NCBI RefSeq assembly: GCF_007744675.1
Contig: NZ_CP036269.1
Location: 4,071,546 to 4,135,545 of the forward strand
Direction: 5' to 3'
DNA: 64,000 nt
Source: Gimesia alba
GTDB taxonomy: Bacteria; Planctomycetota; Planctomycetia; Planctomycetales; Planctomycetaceae
The notes under the pieces are model-generated. The model worked only from the letters and a program-made list of their open reading frames with translations. It made no database searches and was not told the origin of the DNA. Below, one piece after another: positions 41,486-64,000 of this stretch (within the stretch, counting starts at the first letter, position 1; every line of letters begins with the position of its first letter). A program made the translations under genes and the position numbers.

Positions 41486-41778
41486 GTTCCCTCCCGATAC
41501 AATTTCTGTTCTGGAGCTCGATTGCTTTGATTATCTACGCCTATGCTGGATATCCACTGATTCTCTGGTTCTTGACGCGACGCCGTGAAACACAACCAGA
41601 GGATACGAAAACTTCCAGTAACAGTCCCCTGCCTCGTGTCTCGATCGTGATCGCTGCTTACAAAGAAGAAACAGTGATTCTGGAACGCCTGAATAATCTT
41701 GCCAAACTCGATTACCCCAGTGATCGACTGGAAATCCTGATTGGCTGTGATGGAAATGAAGACCTGACGGGGGAACTA
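41482..41778 (+). pseudogene. Family 2 glycosyltransferase, N-terminal piece cut by IS
   Basis: The first 99 codons of a membrane glycosyltransferase. An N-terminal helix (LFWSSIALIIYAYAGYPLIL) leads into the GT-A fold start VSIVIAAYKEETVILERLNN and LEILIGCDGNEDLTGEL. At the target TA/CTAG (41776-41779) the IS element begins, and the frame ends after a few foreign codons with TAA. The remaining 324 codons lie at 42715-43688. Joining both at one copy of the target gives an unbroken 422-residue protein, so only the insertion disables the gene. Its loss probably changes or truncates the sugar chain. Confidence 0.93.
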
Positions 41779-41787
41779 GAGGGCATC

Positions 41788-42632
41788 TCAAAACCTTTTT
41801 AATAGTGTAAATAAACACCCAAGAATTACAAAGCTTTCGTAGAGGTAATCGTGATATTCCCAGCGCGTGACAATGCGACGATAGTTGTGGAGCCAGGCAA
41901 TACTGCGTTCCACAATCCAACGTCGTTTGAAGCGTGGAAGCTTTCGACCATCTTGCGTCGGCGGTTTGACTCTCGATTTTCGATGCGGGCAGATCAGATC
42001 GATATTCTTTTCCATCAGCCGTTTGCGCAACGAGTCCGAATCGGCGGCTTTGTCATAAACAAGTCGCTCGGGTTGTCGATTTTGCAATGTGATTTTTTCA
42101 AGCAGCGGTTCGATCAGCTTGACTTCGCTACGACGGGCCGATTCTGTGTCGATCGCCACAGGTGTCCCGTGACGATCGACAAAAATCATGACCTTTGTGC
42201 CTTTGCCACGACGAGTCGGGCCAACTCTTCTACCCCTTTTTTTGCCGAGGCAAAAGTGCCATCAGCAAAGGTTTCCGAGAAATCAATCTGGCCAGCATCA
42301 TCCATTCGTTCCAAGATGATTTGCCAGGCAGATAAGAGCCGCCCTTCGATCGTCCATTGCTGGAAACGTCGATGGCACGTCGCTTTTGAGGGATACTCTC
42401 TTGGTAAATCTTTCCATCGTGCTCCTGTCACCAAAATCCAGAGAATGCCTTCCAGGCAATCTCGTGGATGGGCTTTTGGACGTCCTCCCTTTTTGGAAGG
42501 GGGAGTCCAGGGAAACAGTTTTGCGACTAAAGACCATTGTTTATCGGTCAAAACGACCGGGCGTTCCGTCCTGGACGCTGTTTTTGTGGAAACCCGTTTT
42601 CGTTTGGGCCACCAGACCAGCGTCATATACAT
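41788..42632 (-). CDS. IS5-family transposase made by -1 frameshift
   Basis: Two overlapping frames. The first (42632-42186, 148 residues) has the N-terminal domain LTDKQWSLVAKLFPWTPPSK and the first catalytic Asp in FSETFADGTFASAKK. The second (to 41788) gives GPTRRGKGTKVMIFVDRHGT with the second Asp, and the Glu in RRWIVERSIAWLHNYRR. A run of seven A on the coding strand (42237-42243, A-AAA-AAA) is a standard slippery site; a -1 shift there joins the frames into about 281 residues. The start has AGGAG eight bases upstream. All DDE residues seem present, so the enzyme may be active. Confidence 0.9.
42237..42243 (-). promoter_or_regulatory. Slippery heptamer for -1 frameshift
   Basis: Seven A on the transposase strand in frame as GCA-AAA-AAA-GGG. 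Shifting back one base reads on as AGG-GGT-AGA and enters the second frame with no stop. This is how IS5/IS427-type transposases are commonly made. Confidence 0.8.
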
Positions 42633-42714
42633 AAGAAATTCTCCTTTCAGGAGAACACTTCATGCAAAAGACGCGCCAAACCGTTCACTTTTTTTGACGT
42701 TATGAGACAACCTC

Positions 42715-43688
42715 TAGTCAAATCGTATGACAATGAGCAAATTAGACTGATTCAATTTGAACAACGCCGCGGCAAAGCATCGGTTCTGAATGACTGTGTT
42801 CCCCAAGCTACAGGAGAAATCATTGTCTTTTCCGATGCAAACACAAATATGGACCCCCAATGCATTAAACAGCTTGTCAGACATTTCCAGCACGAAACCG
42901 TCGGCTGCGTCTGCGGTCAGCTGATCCTGGAAGACCCAGCTACTGGAAAGAATGTAGATGGCCTGTACTGGAAATATGAAAATTTCCTCAAACATTGTGA
43001 AACAAAGATCGGAGCAGTTCTTGGAGTCAATGGTGCCATTTATGCACTTCGCAAGTCTCTCTATTCTCCTATACCACCAGAGACAATCATCGACGATTTT
43101 CTGATCGGCATGCGGGTACATCTGGGAGGGCACCGTCTCATTTACGATGACTCTGCCATAGCCAGAGAAGAAACTGCGACTTCCGTCCACGCAGAATTCA
43201 AGCGGCGAATCAGAATCGGGACTGGAGCCTTTCAGAGTTTAAAGTATCTCAAAGGCTTGCTGAACCCCAGATACGGATCGATCGCATTCGCATTCTGGTC
43301 GCATAAACTACTGCGCTGGCTGTGTCCGGCTTTTATGACCCTGGCACTGGTAGCCAATTTGTGTCTGCTACAGAATCCGATTTATCAAATAACACTGCTC
43401 GCTCAAGGGCTGTTCTATCTGACCGCGTTTGTTGGTATGAAATGTGTCAAAGGAAACCGTATTCTCAAACTCTGTCGGGTCCCCGGCATGTTCGTCCAAA
43501 TGAATCTGGCATTGGCAATCGGTTTCTTCCGCTGGCTCTTTGTCACACAAACGGGAACCTGGGAGCGTACCGAGCGCAGTCAAACAGTCGCATTACCGGT
43601 AGACGAGCAGGATCTGACAAATCCAGATCTTCCTCCCCACGGCTCAGAAACGCCGGAGACGGAATTTACTCAAACATCAAAAAGCTGA
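42715..43688 (+). pseudogene. Family 2 glycosyltransferase, C-terminal piece
   Basis: The rest of the split gene. It has RRGKASVLNDCVPQATGEI and VFSDANTNMD (the metal-binding DxN/DxD site), then CVCGQLILEDPATG, NGAIYALRKS, DDFLIGMRVHLGGHRLIYD and the acceptor motif RRIRIGTGAFQSL. Three to four C-terminal transmembrane helices follow (LCPAFMTLALVANLCLL onwards), as in processive membrane GT2 enzymes. The frame runs open back into the IS, so the reading-frame start seen there is not a real gene start. Any product would lack the nucleotide-binding half. Confidence 0.92.
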
Positions 43689-53185: not shown

Positions 53186-56100
53186 ATGTTGCTGACGAAC
53201 TGGTTAAGATCGATCGCTTCTCAATTCCGACCGTCTCGCCCGCGTAATATTCGTAACCAATGGTCACACTCGAAAAATCGATATCAAGTAATTCACAATC
53301 ATCTTACAAATTCGATCGAACAGCTCGAAGATCGCACGATGCTGACATCCATTTTCAATATCGATGACGTCTCTGTAGTGGAAGGAGATGCCGGAACAAC
53401 GGATGTCATGATTACTGTTACGCGAACGGGCACAGTCGCCGGCGATCTGAATAGTATTGCCACGGTTGACTTTACTACGATTGATGGCACAGCCACGACA
53501 GCAGATTCAGATTATATCGCCCAATCAGATACAATCAGCTTTTCAGCTGATGCATCCGGGCTAACACAAACACAAACCGTCACAATTCAGGTAAACAGTG
53601 ATCTGATCACCGAAGAAGACGAAACGTTTGACATTCAGTTGAGCAACAACAGCTTGGACACGACACTCGGAGATGATTTAGCATCAGTAACAATCCTCAA
53701 CGATGACCAGTCAACCCTCTCGATCAATGATATCACGGTGAATGAATCAGATGGAACGGCAACCGTAACGGTTTCACTTGATAACCCCCTTGATGCCGCT
53801 GTCAACTTTGACTTCTCAGTTTTTGATGAAACCGCCAATGATTCAACCGACTATCTCAGTAGCTCTGGCACACTGACATTTGCTCCAGGGGAACTGTCAA
53901 AAGTCATTGAGATCCCCCTCATCGATTCCGATCTGGTAGAAAGTACCGAAACATTTCTGGTGATTCTGTCTAACATCCAGACAACCAGTTCCAGCCTGGT
54001 GACTCCAGACACACTTGCCAAAGTCCGAATTCTGGACGACGATCAGGCCAGCCTTACAATTGACGATGTTTCCCTTGATGAAGATGGAGTGTCAGCAACG
54101 ATTACCGTCTCTCTAGATAAACCGATCGACACGGCCATCAGCGTTGACTTCGCTACTGCCGACCAGACCGCAACCAGTACAGACGATTATAGCGCCATCT
54201 CGGGCACCCTGACCTTCAACCCGGAAGTGCAAACACAAACCATTACTGTCCCCATCGCAGATAATAATATCGTAGAGCTGGATGAAACATTTCTGATCAA
54301 CTTGTTTAATCTCCAGGCAAACGATGCAGATGTCATCATCGGAGATGCTCAGGCAACTGTCACGATCCAAAACGATGAACAGGCCCAGATTTCGATCAGT
54401 AATATTACTGTAGACGAAAACATGTCCACAGCGGTCTTGACCGTCTCTCTGGATCATCCCGTTGATGCCAATGTCAGTTTTGACTTTGCCACCAGCGATA
54501 ATTCGGCAGCAGATATCACCGACTATCTTGCGACTTCTGGTACTTTGACATTTACCCCAGGAATGCAATCCATTGAAATTCCTGTTTCTCTTGTCGATTC
54601 GGAACTGGTCGAGTTCGATGAATCGTTTCTAGTCGACCTGACTAATATCCAGGCCAATGGTCGCGATGTCATTTTTGCGAACACTCAGGCGGAAGTTACA
54701 ATTCAGGATGATCAGCAGGCTCATCTGACAATAGATGATATCACCGTGACAGAAGATGAAGTAACCGGGATGGCTCTACTAACGGTCTCGCTGGATAGAC
54801 CGGTCGACACAACGATCAGCGTAGACTATACCACCAACGACCAGAACGCCCTCAATACATCCGACTACAGCGCGATATCAGGTACTCTGACGTTTACCCC
54901 TGGCGAACAAACAAAAACAATCATGGTCCCCCTGATCAATGATCCAGATGTTGTAGAAGGTAACGAGACGTTCGTCGTCGACCTGCTGAACCTTGATGGC
55001 AACGGGGCCAACGTCATCATCACTGAGAATCAGGCAACCGTTACCATACTTGATGACGAAACAGCAACCATCTCGATTGACGATATCTCAATCGACGAAA
55101 ATGACCCGAGTGGTATGGCTGTACTAACTGTCTCTTTGGATCAGCCGGTCGCCACTATCGTCACCGTGGATTACACCACGGCCGACAATTCGGCCTTCGA
55201 TCCCACTGACTATACCACACAAACCGGCACACTGACCTTCAATGAGGGAATTCAAACACAAACCATCATGATTCCCATTACTGACGATATGGATATCGTC
55301 GAAGGTATCGAATCATTTCTGGTGAACTTGAGTGGTATTCTTGCCAATGGTGCCAACATTACGTTTGTGGATAGCCAGGGTGAAGTCACCATACTCGATG
55401 ACGAATCAGCAACGATCTCGATCGACGATATTTCGATCGACGAGAATGACCCAAGTGGAATGGCTGCACTGACCGTCACTTTGAGCCAGCCAGTCACCAC
55501 CACTGTTACCATCGATTATTCCACAGCAGATAATACATCCATTGACACAGCAGACTATGCCGCCAAAACCGACACACTGATGTTTGCCCCTGGTATAACG
55601 ACTCAAACCATCATGATCTCCATCATTGACGACATGGATACCATCGAAGGCGATGAATCGTTTTTTGTCAACTTAAGCAACATCCTGGCCAACGGTGCCA
55701 ACATCACATTTGCCGACGATCAGGGGGAAGTCACGATTCTCGATGACGAAGCAACCACTATTTCGATCGATAATGTGACCGTTAACGAAGACGATGGAAC
55801 CGCGACTCTCACCGTCACACTGGACCAACCGGTCGCCACCACTGTTACCGTAGATTATGCCACACAGGATCAACTCGCCCACGATGTGGACGACTATACC
55901 GCCCAAACCGGTACTTTGACCTTTACTCCGGGTACGCAGACACAAACCATTATCATCGACATCACCGATGACCTCGATGTCGTCGAGGGCGATGAATCGT
56001 TTTTCGTTAACCTGACCAATATACAAGCCAACGGTGCTAATATCGGCTTTGCTGATAATCAGGGGGAAGTCACAATACACGATAACGAAGTCGCCACAAT

Positions 56101-58948
56101 CTCGATCAACGATATCAGCGTCAACGAAGACGCAACGGCGACCCTCACCGTCACGCTGGATAAACCGGTCGAAACAGACATCAGCTTTGACTTTGCCACC
56201 AGCGATCAGACAGCCTTTAACCCCGATGACTATACATCTCAAACCAATACCCTGACCTTTTCTGTGGGACAACAGTCACTTGAGATTAATGTCCCTATTA
56301 TTGATGACAACCTTGTGGAAGACGCTGAAACACTTCTGGTCAATCTCACTAATCTTCTCGCCAATGGGGCAAATATCACATTTGCTGATGCACAAGGTGA
56401 GATCACAATTCAAGATAACGATCAGTCCAGTTTTTCAATCGACGATGTCTCTATCAATGAAGATTTGGGAACAGCAACCGTCACCGTCTCTCGGAACAAA
56501 TTAATCGACAGAACTGTCAGTATCGATTACGCCACCAGCAATGACTCTGCTCTTGAACCAGATGACTATACTTCGACATCAGGCACTCTGTCTTTTGCCT
56601 CGAACGAATTTTCAAAAACAATTACGATCCCCATCTTCATTGATGCGGTTGTGGAAGATGATGAATCTTTTGTCGTCGATCTGACGAATCTTCAGGCAAA
56701 CGGAGCCGATGTCATCGTCGGAGACAATCAGGGAACCGTCACAATCCTGAACGATGATCAGGCCACCATGTCTATCAACGACATAACCGTCAACGAAAAT
56801 GACGGGACAGCCACTCTCACTGTTTCTTTAGATCAGCAGGTTGCCACAACTGTCACGGTTGATTTCTCCACCGGCGATCTGTCTGCCTTTGATCTCGACG
56901 ACTATACCGCGCAAAGCGGCACTCTGACCTTCTCCCCGGGAGAGCAAACACAAACAATTATCATCGATATCATTGATGACCTCGACACCGTAGAAGGCGA
57001 CGAATCATTTGTCGTTAACCTGACCGGCCTTCAAGCGAATGGTTTCAATGTGATCATGGGGAATAATCAGGGAACTGTCACGATCCTGGATAATGAGAGT
57101 GCAACCATCTCCATCTCCGATGAAACCGTCAATGAAGGCGACGGAACAGTTACACTCACAGTCACTTTAGACAAACCTGTCAAAACAACGGTCGGTGTCG
57201 ATTACACGACTTCCGATCTGTCTGCCTTCAGTTCAAACGACTATACCACAATGACTGGCACACTCTCTTTTGCGGCGGACCAGCAGACCGACACCATCAT
57301 TGTCCCCATTACTGATGATCTCGATCTGGTAGAAGTAGTGGAACATTTTTCTGTTATCCTGTCAAATATTCAAGCCAATGGGGCCAATGTCACTTTTCTA
57401 GATGATCAGGCTGACGTCAGCATTGAGGATAACGACCAGGCCAGCCTCTCAATCGATGATGTTTCTATCAATGAAGATGGTGTGTCCGCAACCGTCACCG
57501 TCTCTCTGGACAAAGCTGTCGACGCGACAATTAGCGTGGACTACGCAACTGCCGACCAGACCGCATCCAATGCAAGCGACTATAGCGCAACATCTGGCAT
57601 TCTGACTTTCTCCGGCCCCACGGTTCTAACACAAACGATTACGGTTCCCATCACAGATAATAATATTGTGGAGTTGGATGAAACATTTCTCATCAATCTG
57701 ACCAACCTCCAGGCAAATGGAGCCGATGTCATTATCGGTGATAATCAGTCTACGGTGACCATTCTCGACAATGATCATGCCACCATTTCAATCAATGATG
57801 TTTCGGAAGATGAAGACAATGGGACGGTTACGCTTACAGTTTCACTAGACCAGCCGGTCGCTGCGACGATCACAGTTGACTTTGCCACAGCTGATCTATC
57901 CGCTATCGCCCCAGTCGACTATACCGCGCTCACAGGTACCCTGACCTTCGATCCGGGAGTACAAACACAAACTATCACCATTCCTCTCATCGATAATGAG
58001 CTTGTGGAAGTTGATAGAACATTTCATGTAAACCTGACGAACCTGCAAGTCAATGGTTTCGATGTTTCCCTGGGTGTCTTCCAGGCCACTGTCACGATTC
58101 TGGACGACGATCAAGCGACAATCTCAATCAACGATATTTCCATTGATGAAGATGCCGGAATGGCATTGATTGACGTCACATTAGACAAACCAGTCGAAGA
58201 AACCGTGACCGTGGAATATGCGACCGCGAATCAGACAGCATTCGACCCAGCCGACTACACTACGATGGCTGGTACGCTGACGTTCCTCGCAGGCGAAGTA
58301 TCACATCAGATCATGGTGCCCATTATCGACAATATGATTGTCGAAGGCGACGAAATATTTCTCATCAACCTGTCCAACATTCTGTCGAATGGGACAAACG
58401 TTGTATTCGCTGATGACCAGGCAGAAGTCACCATTCTGGATAACGAACAGGCCAGCTTCTCGATTGATGATATGATTGTGGATGAATCTGCAGGCACCGC
58501 TACCCTTACCGTTTCCCTTAACCTGATTGTTGATACGGACATCAGTGTGGACTTCACCACATTCAATCTGACAGCAGGCAGTCCTGACGACTATACCGCT
58601 AAAACTGAGACACTGGAGTTTCTCTCGGGTGATCTGATGAAAACCATCACCATTGATATCATTGACGACAATCTTGTGGAAGACGATGAATCATTCCTTG
58701 TCAGATTGAGCAATATTCAAAATGGGACGAATGTCACATTTGCTGATAGCCAGGGAACCATTCTGATTCGTGATAATGACGAAGCCCTGCTCTCAATCCA
58801 AGACACGACCGTAAATGAAATGGACGGGACGGTCTCCGTCACAGTTTCACTAGATAAACCGGTCGACACCACAATTAGCGTCGACTACTTTACAACACCT
58901 GGCTCTGCTCTCAATCCGGACGATTTCACGTCTCAATCGGGTTCCTAA
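53186..58948 (+). CDS. Giant Calx-beta repeat surface protein, part before in-frame stop
   Basis: 1920 residues. The N-terminus (about 1-55) is basic and ends in SIEQLEDRTMLTS, the planctomycete extracellular signature related to LEPR-XLL. After it come 16 complete Calx-beta repeats of about 113 residues and part of a 17th, each with a core such as ISIDDVSINEDxGTATLTVSLDKP, a DYTAxSGTLTF strand, an acidic VEGDESFxVNL strand and the end VTILDDxQA. Calx-beta domains bind calcium and are used in surface adhesins. The frame ends with TAA at 58946-58948 inside repeat 17 (SQSG-S-stop-TFSPSEQ), where every other copy has Leu. No sorting domain is present in this part, so the product as read would be cut short. 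Confidence 0.9.
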   Translation: MLLTNWLRSIASQFRPSRPRNIRNQWSHSKNRYQVIHNHLTNSIEQLEDRTMLTSIFNIDDVSVVEGDAGTTDVMITVTRTGTVAGDLNSIATVDFTTIDGTATTADSDYIAQSDTISFSADASGLTQTQTVTIQVNSDLITEEDETFDIQLSNNSLDTTLGDDLASVTILNDDQSTLSINDITVNESDGTATVTVSLDNPLDAAVNFDFSVFDETANDSTDYLSSSGTLTFAPGELSKVIEIPLIDSDLVESTETFLVILSNIQTTSSSLVTPDTLAKVRILDDDQASLTIDDVSLDEDGVSATITVSLDKPIDTAISVDFATADQTATSTDDYSAISGTLTFNPEVQTQTITVPIADNNIVELDETFLINLFNLQANDADVIIGDAQATVTIQNDEQAQISISNITVDENMSTAVLTVSLDHPVDANVSFDFATSDNSAADITDYLATSGTLTFTPGMQSIEIPVSLVDSELVEFDESFLVDLTNIQANGRDVIFANTQAEVTIQDDQQAHLTIDDITVTEDEVTGMALLTVSLDRPVDTTISVDYTTNDQNALNTSDYSAISGTLTFTPGEQTKTIMVPLINDPDVVEGNETFVVDLLNLDGNGANVIITENQATVTILDDETATISIDDISIDENDPSGMAVLTVSLDQPVATIVTVDYTTADNSAFDPTDYTTQTGTLTFNEGIQTQTIMIPITDDMDIVEGIESFLVNLSGILANGANITFVDSQGEVTILDDESATISIDDISIDENDPSGMAALTVTLSQPVTTTVTIDYSTADNTSIDTADYAAKTDTLMFAPGITTQTIMISIIDDMDTIEGDESFFVNLSNILANGANITFADDQGEVTILDDEATTISIDNVTVNEDDGTATLTVTLDQPVATTVTVDYATQDQLAHDVDDYTAQTGTLTFTPGTQTQTIIIDITDDLDVVEGDESFFVNLTNIQANGANIGFADNQGEVTIHDNEVATISINDISVNEDATATLTVTLDKPVETDISFDFATSDQTAFNPDDYTSQTNTLTFSVGQQSLEINVPIIDDNLVEDAETLLVNLTNLLANGANITFADAQGEITIQDNDQSSFSIDDVSINEDLGTATVTVSRNKLIDRTVSIDYATSNDSALEPDDYTSTSGTLSFASNEFSKTITIPIFIDAVVEDDESFVVDLTNLQANGADVIVGDNQGTVTILNDDQATMSINDITVNENDGTATLTVSLDQQVATTVTVDFSTGDLSAFDLDDYTAQSGTLTFSPGEQTQTIIIDIIDDLDTVEGDESFVVNLTGLQANGFNVIMGNNQGTVTILDNESATISISDETVNEGDGTVTLTVTLDKPVKTTVGVDYTTSDLSAFSSNDYTTMTGTLSFAADQQTDTIIVPITDDLDLVEVVEHFSVILSNIQANGANVTFLDDQADVSIEDNDQASLSIDDVSINEDGVSATVTVSLDKAVDATISVDYATADQTASNASDYSATSGILTFSGPTVLTQTITVPITDNNIVELDETFLINLTNLQANGADVIIGDNQSTVTILDNDHATISINDVSEDEDNGTVTLTVSLDQPVAATITVDFATADLSAIAPVDYTALTGTLTFDPGVQTQTITIPLIDNELVEVDRTFHVNLTNLQVNGFDVSLGVFQATVTILDDDQATISINDISIDEDAGMALIDVTLDKPVEETVTVEYATANQTAFDPADYTTMAGTLTFLAGEVSHQIMVPIIDNMIVEGDEIFLINLSNILSNGTNVVFADDQAEVTILDNEQASFSIDDMIVDESAGTATLTVSLNLIVDTDISVDFTTFNLTAGSPDDYTAKTETLEFLSGDLMKTITIDIIDDNLVEDDESFLVRLSNIQNGTNVTFADSQGTILIRDNDEALLSIQDTTVNEMDGTVSVTVSLDKPVDTTISVDYFTTPGSALNPDDFTSQSGS
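55394..55813 (+). repeat. Perfect 420-bp direct repeat, copy 1
   Basis: Base-for-base the same as 59447-59866 as far as I can read. It spans repeat 7 and the start of repeat 8. Near-identity continues for some 70 bases beyond. The offset is 4053 bases (1351 codons), so both copies are in one frame. Confidence 0.9.
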
Positions 58949-61900
58949 ACCTTCAGCCCAAGCGAACAGTCAAAAACGATTATCATTCCTCTCACCAATG
59001 ACATCGATATTGTCGAAGGCGATGAAACATTTCTGATCAACCTGATCAATCTTGTCCCCAACGGGGCCGCTGTCACGATTGGAGATGATCAGGCTACCGT
59101 CACCATTCTCGATGACGAAACAGCAACGATCTCCATCGACGACATGACCGTCAACGAGAACGACGGCACCGCCACACTCACCGTCTCACTCGATCAGCCG
59201 GTCGCCACCACCGTCACTGTCGACTATGCCACTCAGGATCAACTCGCCCTCGATCCCGACGATTACACTGCGCAAACCGGAACGCTGACCTTTAACGAGG
59301 GAGTCCAGACCCAAACGATTATCATCGACATCACCGATGATCTCGACATTGTCGAAGGCATCGAATCGTTTTTCGTCAACCTGACCAACATCCAGGCCAA
59401 CGGTGCCAACATCACGTTTGCTGACGCGCAGGGAGAAGTCACCATTCTCGATGACGAATCAGCAACGATCTCGATCGACGATATTTCGATCGACGAGAAT
59501 GACCCAAGTGGAATGGCTGCACTGACCGTCACTTTGAGCCAGCCAGTCACCACCACTGTTACCATCGATTATTCCACAGCAGATAATACATCCATTGACA
59601 CAGCAGACTATGCCGCCAAAACCGACACACTGATGTTTGCCCCTGGTATAACGACTCAAACCATCATGATCTCCATCATTGACGACATGGATACCATCGA
59701 AGGCGATGAATCGTTTTTTGTCAACTTAAGCAACATCCTGGCCAACGGTGCCAACATCACATTTGCCGACGATCAGGGGGAAGTCACGATTCTCGATGAC
59801 GAAGCAACCACTATTTCGATCGATAATGTGACCGTTAACGAAGACGATGGAACCGCGACTCTCACCCTCACACTGGATCAACCGGTCGCCACCACTGTTA
59901 CCGTAGATTATGCCACACAGGATCAACTCGCCCACGATCCCGACGATTACACCGCCCAAACCGGAACACTGACTTTTATACCTGGGGTACAAACTCAAGA
60001 AATTATCATTTCGATCACCGACGACATGGACATCGTTGAAGGCATCGAAACTTTTTTCGTCAACCTGGCCAACATCCAGGCCAGCGGCGCCAATATCTCC
60101 TTTGCTGACGACCAAGGGGAAGTCACCATTCTCGATGACGAAACGGCCACCATCTCCATCGACGACATGACCGTCAACGAAAATGACGGCACCGCCACAC
60201 TCACCGTCTCACTGGACAAACCGGTCGCCACCACCGTCACCGTCGATTATGCCACACAAGATCAACTCGCCCTCGATCCCGACGACTATACCGCTCAAAC
60301 CGGAACACTGACCTTCGCGCCGGACGTCCAGACGCAAACCATCACCATCGACATCACCGATGATCTCGATATCGTCGAAGGCATCGAATCGTTTTTCGTC
60401 AACCTGACCAACATCCAGGCCAACGGTGCCAACATCACGTTTGCTGACGCGCAGGGAGAAGTCACCATTCTCGATGACGAAACGGCCACCATCTCCATCG
60501 ACGACATAACCGTCAACGAGAACGACGGCACCGCCACACTCACCGTCTCACTGGACAAACCGGTCGCCACCACCGTCACCGTTGATTATGGCACACAGGA
60601 TCAACTCGCCATCGATCCCGACGACTATACCGCGCAAGCCGGAACACTCACCTTCGCTCCGGACGTGCAGACGCAAACCATCATCATCGACATCACCGAT
60701 GACCTCGATATCGTCGAAGGCATCGAATCGTTTTTCGTCAACCTGACCAACATCCAGGCCAACGGCGCCAACATCACGTTTGCTGACGCGCAGGGAGAAG
60801 TCACCATTCTCGATGACGAAACGGCCACCATCTCCATCGACGACATGACCGTCAACGAAAATGACGGAACCGCCACACTCACCGTCTCACTGGATCAACC
60901 GGTCGCCACCACCGTCACGGTCGACTACACCACCCAGGATCAGCTCGCCGTTGAGACCGACGATTACACCGCGCAAGCCGGAACACTGACTTTCACCCCT
61001 GGGATACAAACTCAAGAAATTATCATTTCGATCACAGACGACATGGACATCGTCGAAGGCATCGAAACGTTTTTCGTCAACCTGGCCAACATTCAGGCCA
61101 GCGGCGCCAACATCTCCTTTGCTGACGACCAAGGGGAAGTCACCATTCTCGATAACGAAACTGCCACCATCTCCATCGACGACATAACCGTCAACGAAAA
61201 TGACGGAACCGCCACACTCACCGTCTCACTGGACAAACCGGTCGCCACCACCGTCTCGGTCGACTTTGCCACACAGGATCAACTCGCCATCGATCCCGAC
61301 GATTACACTGCGCAAGCCGGAACACTCACCTTCGCTCCGGACGTGCAGACGCAAACCATCATCATCGACATCACCGATGACCTCGATATCGTCGAAGGCA
61401 TCGAAACGTTTTTCGTCAACCTGGCCAACATCCAGGCCAGCGGCGCCAACATCTCCCTTGCTGACGACCAAGGGGAAGTCACCATCCTCGATGACGAAAC
61501 TGCCACCATCACTATCGACGACATGACCGTCAACGAGAATGACGGAACTGCCACACTCACCGTCTCACTGGATCAGCCGATTGCCACCGTAGTCATGGTA
61601 GATTTTGCCACTGCAGATCAGACGGCCGTCGGCCCGGACGATTACACATCTCAGTCTGGCACCCTGACTTTCAACCCGGGAATACAAACTCAAACCATTA
61701 CGATCGACATCATTGACGACATTCTGGTCGAAAGCGATGAATCGTTTTTTGTCAACCTAGCCAACATCCAGGCCAGCGGCGCCAACATATCCTTTGCTGA
61801 CGACCAGGGGGAAGTCACCATTCTTTTCAGCGAACAGGCCCGTTTTTCAATCAATGACATGACTGTCAATGAAAACGCAGGCACTGCCACCCTCACAGTT

Positions 61901-64000
61901 TCGTTAGATCAACCCGTTGAGATTTCCGTCAGCGTGGATTATACCACTGTAGATCTGACCGCCGCTGATCCAGATGATTATACATCCCAGTCTGGTACCC
62001 TCACCTTCAATGCGGGTGAACAAACAAAAACAATCACCGTTTCCATCGTCGATACGAATCTGGTGGAAAGTACAGAATCATTTTTCGTAAATCTATCCAA
62101 CATTCAATCTGACACGGCTAATGTCATATTTACCGATTCACAGGCAGTCGTCACGATTCTGGATGATGATCACGCCAACTTAACCATTAGTGATTTGACA
62201 GTGGATGAAACGGATGGAACAGCTGCAATCACCGTCTCCTTGGACAATCCGGTCTACACCGAAATCAGCGTTGATTTTCTTACAGCTGACCAGACTGCAT
62301 TAAACTCCATTGATTATCTCTTTCAATCGGGAAGCTTGACATTCAATCCGGGAGAGCAAACGAAAACGATATTCATCACCATTCTGGATAATTCCATTGT
62401 CGAATTTACCGAAACATTTCTGGTTAGCCTCAGCAATCTGCAAACCATCAGTCCTGATGTAACCCTGGCAGACAATCTGGCAACCATCACTATTATTGAT
62501 AATGATTCCGCGGCATTTTCGATCAATGACCTGACTGTCAATGAAGACGCAGGCACTGTCACCCTTACCGTCTCCCTGGATCATGCAGTTCATACCACAG
62601 TTACTGTCGATTACTATACCGCCGATAATTCCGCAGCAAATCCTTCCGATTATCTGTCTCGAACAGGCACTTTGATTTTCACCTTGGGAGAACAACCACT
62701 CACCATTACCATTCCCATCGTAGATTCTGATCTGGTGGAATCCACAGAAAGCTTTTTCGTCAATCTGACCAACATCCAGGCCAGCGGACTTGATGTCACT
62801 TACGCGGATGCTCAGGGAGAAGTCACCATTCTGGATGATGACCAGGCCACTTTAACGATAGATGATATGATCGTGGATGAAGCCGCGGGAACGGCAAGTA
62901 TTACAGTCTCTCTCGATCAACCCGTGCAAACCAATGTCTCCGTCGATTTTGCCACCGCCGATCAAACGGCCGTCGATTCAGACGATTATCTGGCAACAGT
63001 CGGCACCGTCACTTTCAATCCGGGCGAGCAATCTCAAACGCTCACTGTGGACCTTGTTAATACGGATCTGGTCGAACCCGATGAAACGTTTCTTGTCAAC
63101 CTGACGAATCTGCAGGCGAATGGGCATAATGTCATTTTAGGAGATAGTCAAGCCACCGTCACGATCACGGATGACGACCAGGCCAGCCTCACAATCAACG
63201 ACGTTACAGTCAACGAAAACGAGGGGACCGCCATGATAACCGTGTCGCTGGACAAACCTGTCGACACGACAATTAGTATAGACTTCGCCACCGCCGATCA
63301 AACCGCCTTTGCTCCAGACGACTATCAGTCTATGTCTGGCTCGCTGACGTTCAATCCGGGAGAACAATCAAAAACGATCACCGTTTCCATCGTCGATTCG
63401 ATTCCATTGGAACAGGATGAAACGTTTCTGGTAAATCTGACTAATTTGCAAGCGAACGGCTACGACGTGATACTGGCCGATAACCAGTCCGTAGTTACCA
63501 TTATTGACGATGTTATTGCTTCTGCAGAGATTAATGTGCGTGTGGTCAATGCTCCCACAAACACCCAACCCAACGGGGAAGCATCCACGCTTCCGGCAAA
63601 CAATAACTGGGTCAGCGAATGGTCTTCGTACTGGGTCGAAATCTGGGTCAGTGCCAACAGCCCTACCGGCCAGGGAGTGTACTCAGCAGATATCGATTTC
63701 AATTATATCACAGAATATACCTCAGCCACCGCGATCCAATTTGGAGCTGCCTTTACTCAAAATCAAGCTGGTATCATCAACGATCAGACGGGAACCATCA
63801 GAGGACTCTCTGCGGAAACGAACGCCTCTGGCCTGGGAATCGACCACCAGCTCCTCTTTGCAAGAATCAAATTCGAACCACTGGCCGAAGATCAGGTTGC
63901 GTTGGATCTTCCAGGAAAAAGCATCGGTCCTTACGATTTGGGGCTTAGCGTCAGTTCGTCTCAAGTTAGTTTAGAAGCCGATATACCTGTCACGACTGAT
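58949..64000 (+). CDS. Giant Calx-beta protein, continuation after the stop, open at the window edge
   Basis: The same frame continues with no further stop seen for 1684 codons to the window end. It finishes repeat 17 and carries repeats 18-30. After the last repeat near 63510 a non-repetitive domain starts with SAEINVRVVNAPTNTQPNGE and has GVYSADIDFNYITEYTSA and QLLFARIKFEP. It resembles the cohesin-like domain that precedes dockerins in planctomycete secreted proteins. The conserved frame shows this was one gene of well over 3600 residues. No start codon with a ribosome site follows the stop, so it is probably untranslated unless read through or restored. Confidence 0.82.
59447..59866 (+). 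repeat. Perfect 420-bp direct repeat, copy 2
   Basis: Second copy of 55394-55813. The first difference after it is at 59867 (C for G). The in-frame stop at 58946 lies between the two copies. Confidence 0.9.
60140..61834 (+). repeat. Homogenised tandem 339-bp Calx-beta units
   Basis: Five units start at 60140, 60479, 60818, 61157 and 61496, exactly 339 bases (113 codons) apart, with only scattered differences. The codons are richer in C-ending forms than in the older repeats upstream. A second-level match 1017 bases apart (three units; ctcaag at 59994 and 61011) shows exchange of blocks. This points to recent duplication or gene conversion. Confidence 0.88.

Follow-up and report, generated by a model that had tools for sequence, protein, structure and literature searches.

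Planctomycetes are rich in genes longer than 5 kb, and giant genes are reported to encode mostly surface proteins or PKS/NRPS (PMC5177795). In Apilactobacillus kunkeei, internal stops have been described in giant surface-protein genes, one of which was confirmed and one of which was a sequencing error (PMC12863079). Our search of the literature found no paper on Calx-beta giants of planctomycetes. Here we describe a member of this protein family in Gimesia alba (genome G000) that is interrupted by a stop codon. The gene lies in a window of 64,000 nucleotides, the whole stretch of DNA that was analyzed (contig NZ_CP036269.1, positions 4,071,546 to 4,135,545 of the forward strand). Coordinates of the gene refer to the window unless given for the contig (G000:C1), and its features all lie on the + strand.

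Structure of the interrupted gene

The Calx-beta gene is 11.6 kb long. It starts at ATG 53186, the first start of an open reading frame of 1920 aa, and in the same frame the window bases 58937-58957, read directly as TCG GGT TCC TAA ACC TTC AGC, place a TAA stop at codon 1921 (58946-58948). From 58949 the frame runs on without a stop to the end of the window and then to a TAG at G000:C1:4136361 (L006 position 11862), the true end of the gene, 816 bases past the window. The tally of the gene is 1920 codons, the stop, and 1955 further codons, with no second stop or frameshift in 3875 codons. An open run of 1955 codons with matching repeats is not a product of chance. Translation and Pfam uphold the original prediction that the frame stays open with matching repeats after the stop, but the TAG lies beyond the window and the gene does not end inside it. 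Annotation calls for caution here, as the separate Calx-beta open reading frames of 1920 and 1619+ aa in the window are one gene.

The N-terminal part (53186..58945) joins a conserved planctomycete N-terminus (MLLTNWLRSIAS...IEQLEDRTMLTS) to about 16.5 Calx-beta units, as delineated by the open reading frame and its translation, Pfam, and the orthologues of genomes G016, G002 and G003. The C-terminal part (58949..64000, open to the TAG) holds about 14 units followed by a unique C-terminus, as delineated by translation, the L006 open reading frame and Pfam. Both halves are Calx-beta repeat proteins by their matches to Pfam PF03160, which cover 17 stretches in the first (4e-285, 927 bits) and 14 stretches in the second (5e-267, 869 bits), against a curated cut-off of 27 bits. 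With units of about 113 aa, the array comes close to the 30 repeats originally claimed.

The unit cut by the stop has approximate boundaries 58790..59116, taken from an ungapped 222-aa alignment to G016 and G002 and from the unit ends. It is the only unit in the gene with a stop at the position of the Leu in the G-T-L-T-F motif; at the equivalent position of other units we found Leu in 25 (CTG in 18, CTC in 4 and TTG in 3) and ATC in one. The position had been correctly recognized, but the interrupted unit itself reads G-S-(stop)-T-F and not G-T-(stop)-T-F.

The unique C-terminus starts at approximately 63510 with a cohesin-like region (63510..64000), and a dockerin-like pair and a domain with an HExxHxxGxxH motif follow beyond the window; these assignments draw on weak Pfam matches and on an alignment of the C-terminal 196 aa to eight relatives. 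The dockerin-like pair scored 22.5 bits against a cut-off of 22.9. In the final domain, residues H135, E136, H139, H145 and M151 are invariant in all nine aligned sequences, so that the HExxHxxGxxH motif and the Met-turn are both present, with the G of the motif replaced by D in two of the nine. Matches to Peptidase_M10 were weak (16.7-20.4 bits, cut-off 24), a match to karilysin (E 0.005) covered only 24 positions, and the structure model was of low confidence (pLDDT 54) and matched no known fold significantly. The resemblance of the final domain to a metzincin zinc peptidase is one of motif only. Relatives of the C-terminal region are present in all 17 genomes of the genus. The protein is probably secreted and probably surface-exposed, and its architecture points to a surface or matrix role.

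Orthologues, paralogues and origin of the stop

Syntenic orthologues are uninterrupted in three genomes of the same genus, G016 (3220 aa), G002 (3211 aa) and G003 (3645 aa), and have in common with the gene of G. alba both the N-terminus and the C-terminal tail. Beyond the locus, a kinase-like gene, identified from sequence only, is found in G000, G016 and G002. Local G+C was 48.5% over 780 kb of G000 and 43.9-45.0% in the G002 and G003 loci. The 222 residues that hold the stop can be aligned gap-free among G000, G016 and G002, and the codon opposite the stop is TTA in G016, the closest relative, and CTG in G002. Since both codons specify Leu, the stop arose on the lineage of G. alba. The global alignment pairs a GTG of G003 with the stop, G003 being less clearly orthologous there. 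These comparisons bear out the proposals that one in-frame stop splits one Calx-beta gene, that it is one base change away from a Leu codon, and that it falls inside a domain. When GTDB genomes were scanned for the exact pattern of the stop region, its middle base being left free, no match was returned, and a scan there for relatives likewise returned none.

Two intact paralogues are encoded in the same genome: one of 2691 aa directly downstream of the gene, which G016 lacks at this locus, and another of 5197 codons at 2.55 Mb. Paralogues at G000:C1:4143253-4144677 and 2554022-2555491 are almost identical in their C-terminal sequence (ENEGVMQDGLAPGVRNLPTWGEDLDDFFSDLT) and have repeat hits that match, although 1.59 Mb separates them, which suggests gene conversion between the two. 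In another species, a member of the C-terminal family (L126, G004:C70:53121-54464, from a draft assembly) carries an in-frame TAG inside a conserved domain. Two apparent stops in family members of G000 (7254630 and 5584236) were the natural terminators of these genes and were rejected.

Selection and age of the stop

Comparison of G000 with G016 gave dN/dS values of 0.12 in the unique C-terminus (432 codons) and 0.14 in the N-terminal 419 codons, estimates that are rough given that synonymous sites are near saturation. When changes in the C-terminus were assigned to branches with G002 and G003 as outgroups, we counted 68 silent and 51 replacement changes on the G000 branch and 46 and 52, respectively, on the G016 branch. 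The G000 branch appears, at this rough resolution, to have no excess of amino-acid changes and no sign of relaxed selection. Purifying selection is evident at both ends of the gene; at the C-terminal end it would be just as visible if that part were still translated in some way.

There are 847 single-base changes in the gene that would give a further stop, none of which is present. Consequently, if the gene is dead, the neutral divergence accumulated since its inactivation (95% bound) is below about 0.011 when both halves are taken as free to change and about 0.020 when the second half alone is. The neutral divergence of the whole G000 branch is about 0.63 (half of the dS of 1.26 against G016). 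Because both ends bear the mark of purifying selection and no second stop or frameshift has accumulated, the stop appears to be very young, with less than about 1-2% neutral divergence in a dead gene, or at most a few percent of the branch dating from the divergence of G000 and G016.

Translation beyond the stop

Selection downstream of the stop is what would be seen if the TAA were read through at some level and the full protein of 3876 aa were still made. We consider this option of the original prediction poorly supported and highly unlikely. TAA is a normal terminator, ending 186 of the 359 conserved open reading frames longer than 200 aa in the compared region of G016 (122 end in TGA and 51 in TAG), and it is also the commonest in the G000 set (185 TAA, 125 TGA, 51 TAG). 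Reassignment of the code was ruled out, given that TAA, TGA and TAG all act as terminators. Programmed read-through calls for a stop kept in relatives and for a suppressor tRNA or downstream RNA structure. However, no relative keeps the stop at this site, where orthologues carry Leu or Val codons; none of 62 tRNA matches (Rfam search, read with ARAGORN) has a stop-codon anticodon; and in the 100 nt downstream of the stop, RNA folding does not surpass that of shuffled sequences (z -0.4). Furthermore, other stops in G000 include TGA and do not belong to one codon class.

The 1955 open codons and the conserved C-terminal motifs, including HExxH...H...M, are also compatible with two functional genes, the C-terminal part now being translated separately by re-initiation. 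The original prediction had treated a start codon with expression directly after the stop as evidence against its reading. No start lies directly after it: the nearest, and the only in-frame one within 400 nt, is ATG 59144 (59144..59146), located 196 bases past the stop by the start-codon scan and lacking a Shine-Dalgarno sequence, and no promoter-like site was found on the + strand. Moreover, the C-terminal fragment would lack the conserved N-terminus and begin inside a repeat, with a boundary inside a domain. We consider separate translation very unlikely.

Other broken genes and the reality of the base

A 780-kb stretch of G000 was compared reciprocally with its syntenic counterpart of 780 kb in G016 (about 410 orthologous open reading frames, 181,500 codons). 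Only stops with conserved sense flanks were kept, and start-extension and antisense open reading frames were left out. In G000, a PQQ-domain gene (L044, G000:C1:4159525; 94.8% identical to G016) has AAA changed to TAA at codon 144 and is otherwise undamaged; a Pec_lyase-domain gene (L092, G000:C1:4696333 and 4697200; also 94.8% identical to G016) has two stops, TGG to TGA and CAA to TAA; and a DUF1559-like gene, named from sequence only (L077, G000:C1:4397602), has GGA changed to TGA near the C-terminus. Two more genes of G000 in this comparison are split by identical 941-bp IS copies. No clear mid-gene stop was found in the syntenic 780 kb of G016, and no frameshift in any clear protein-coding gene in the 780 kb of G000. 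About 4 stops per 181,500 codons give a chance of about 8% of one in a gene of 3877 codons, and the gene is therefore a likely victim by length alone and its stop unsurprising. Note that the scanner missed the giant gene itself through its repeats, and similar stops could therefore hide in other repeat genes.

Within the window, a glycosyltransferase-like gene that G016 has in one piece is interrupted by a 941-bp IS element (IS5-like by sequence; 41777-42717). Its transposition was recent, since the 780 kb of G000 contain two more copies with 100% identity.

This census bears on whether the stop is an error of base calling or assembly and the gene intact in the living strain. All the sequence surrounding the stop has the look of a living gene, repeats are able to mislead assembly and polishing, and of the two internal stops in giant genes cited above one was an error and one was confirmed (PMC12863079). 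However, the genome is a single closed contig of 7,769,723 bases, and frameshifts, the usual long-read error, are absent from clear protein-coding genes in the 780 kb. A stop results from about 2.4% of the single-base changes possible in the gene, and to explain all stops as errors would need a rate near 4 in 10,000. The unit with the stop is no near-copy of another unit, and the gene with two stops and the IS insertions speak for real gene decay in this strain. An error is accordingly improbable, and the pattern of broken genes is likelier to reflect real recent decay than poor assembly.

Recent inactivation as the probable explanation

The locus has the attributes of a nonsense pseudogene, with a stop deep in a conserved frame, intact syntenic orthologues in G016, G002 and G003, and little or no further decay. 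A recent nonsense mutation has quite probably inactivated one long, probably secreted member of the Calx-beta family in this strain; of the three options originally offered, a recently killed gene best fits the patterns of selection, the lack of further lesions and the other broken genes. A Leu codon would have changed to TAA very recently and in one strain. Ribosomes would then stop after 1920 residues, releasing a short product that still has the N-terminal export region and roughly half of the repeats, whereas the cohesin-like, dockerin-like and metzincin-like C-terminus is missing; the second half of the gene would go untranslated, and the change would be too young for further decay to have followed. 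We infer that the base is genuine, that the short product fails to fulfill the role of the gene, and that neighboring paralogues soften the loss. The intact paralogues, including the one immediately downstream, may provide compensation.

The longest exact repeat in the gene is a direct repeat of 420 bp, with an upstream copy at 55394..55813 (near-identity extends to about 55885, with two mismatches) and a downstream copy at 59447..59866. The copies are 4053 bp apart, in frame, and flank the stop, and therefore homologous recombination could delete it. Such an event, which is speculative, might take out 12 units along with the stop, so that about 2525 codons would form one open frame. In relatives, too, there are exact repeats of considerable length (239, 191 and 359 bp), and the orthologues vary in size, which is what recombination between units would be expected to produce. 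If the stop were reversible, cultures might mix interrupted and shortened open forms, but that it represents a reversible off state at the population level strikes us as very unlikely. The most likely reading is a gene loss of the ordinary kind that happened very recently, and not a new mechanism. The gene would thus offer a clean example of young inactivation, in which the orthologues are intact and decay has not followed; unless the stop is reversible or read through, it adds little beyond this example and the caution for annotation.

Comparison with known systems

The Ca2+-dependent adhesin MpAFP of Marinomonas primoryensis (PMC4083281) is likewise a long chain with extended arrays of Ig-like repeats, which are near-identical and about 100 residues each. 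The protein of G. alba differs in its Calx-beta units and its C-terminus, the comparison being one of sequence architecture. Among planctomycete giant genes, the Calx-beta gene with its 11.6 kb passes the 5 kb mark and falls short of the 15-kb threshold used for Gimesia (PMC7716864). The interrupted genes of A. kunkeei (PMC12863079) belong to another phylum and to other protein families, and a stop was confirmed there while that of G. alba is known from the assembly; in both cases, however, single strains carry a termination codon inside the gene of a giant extracellular protein.
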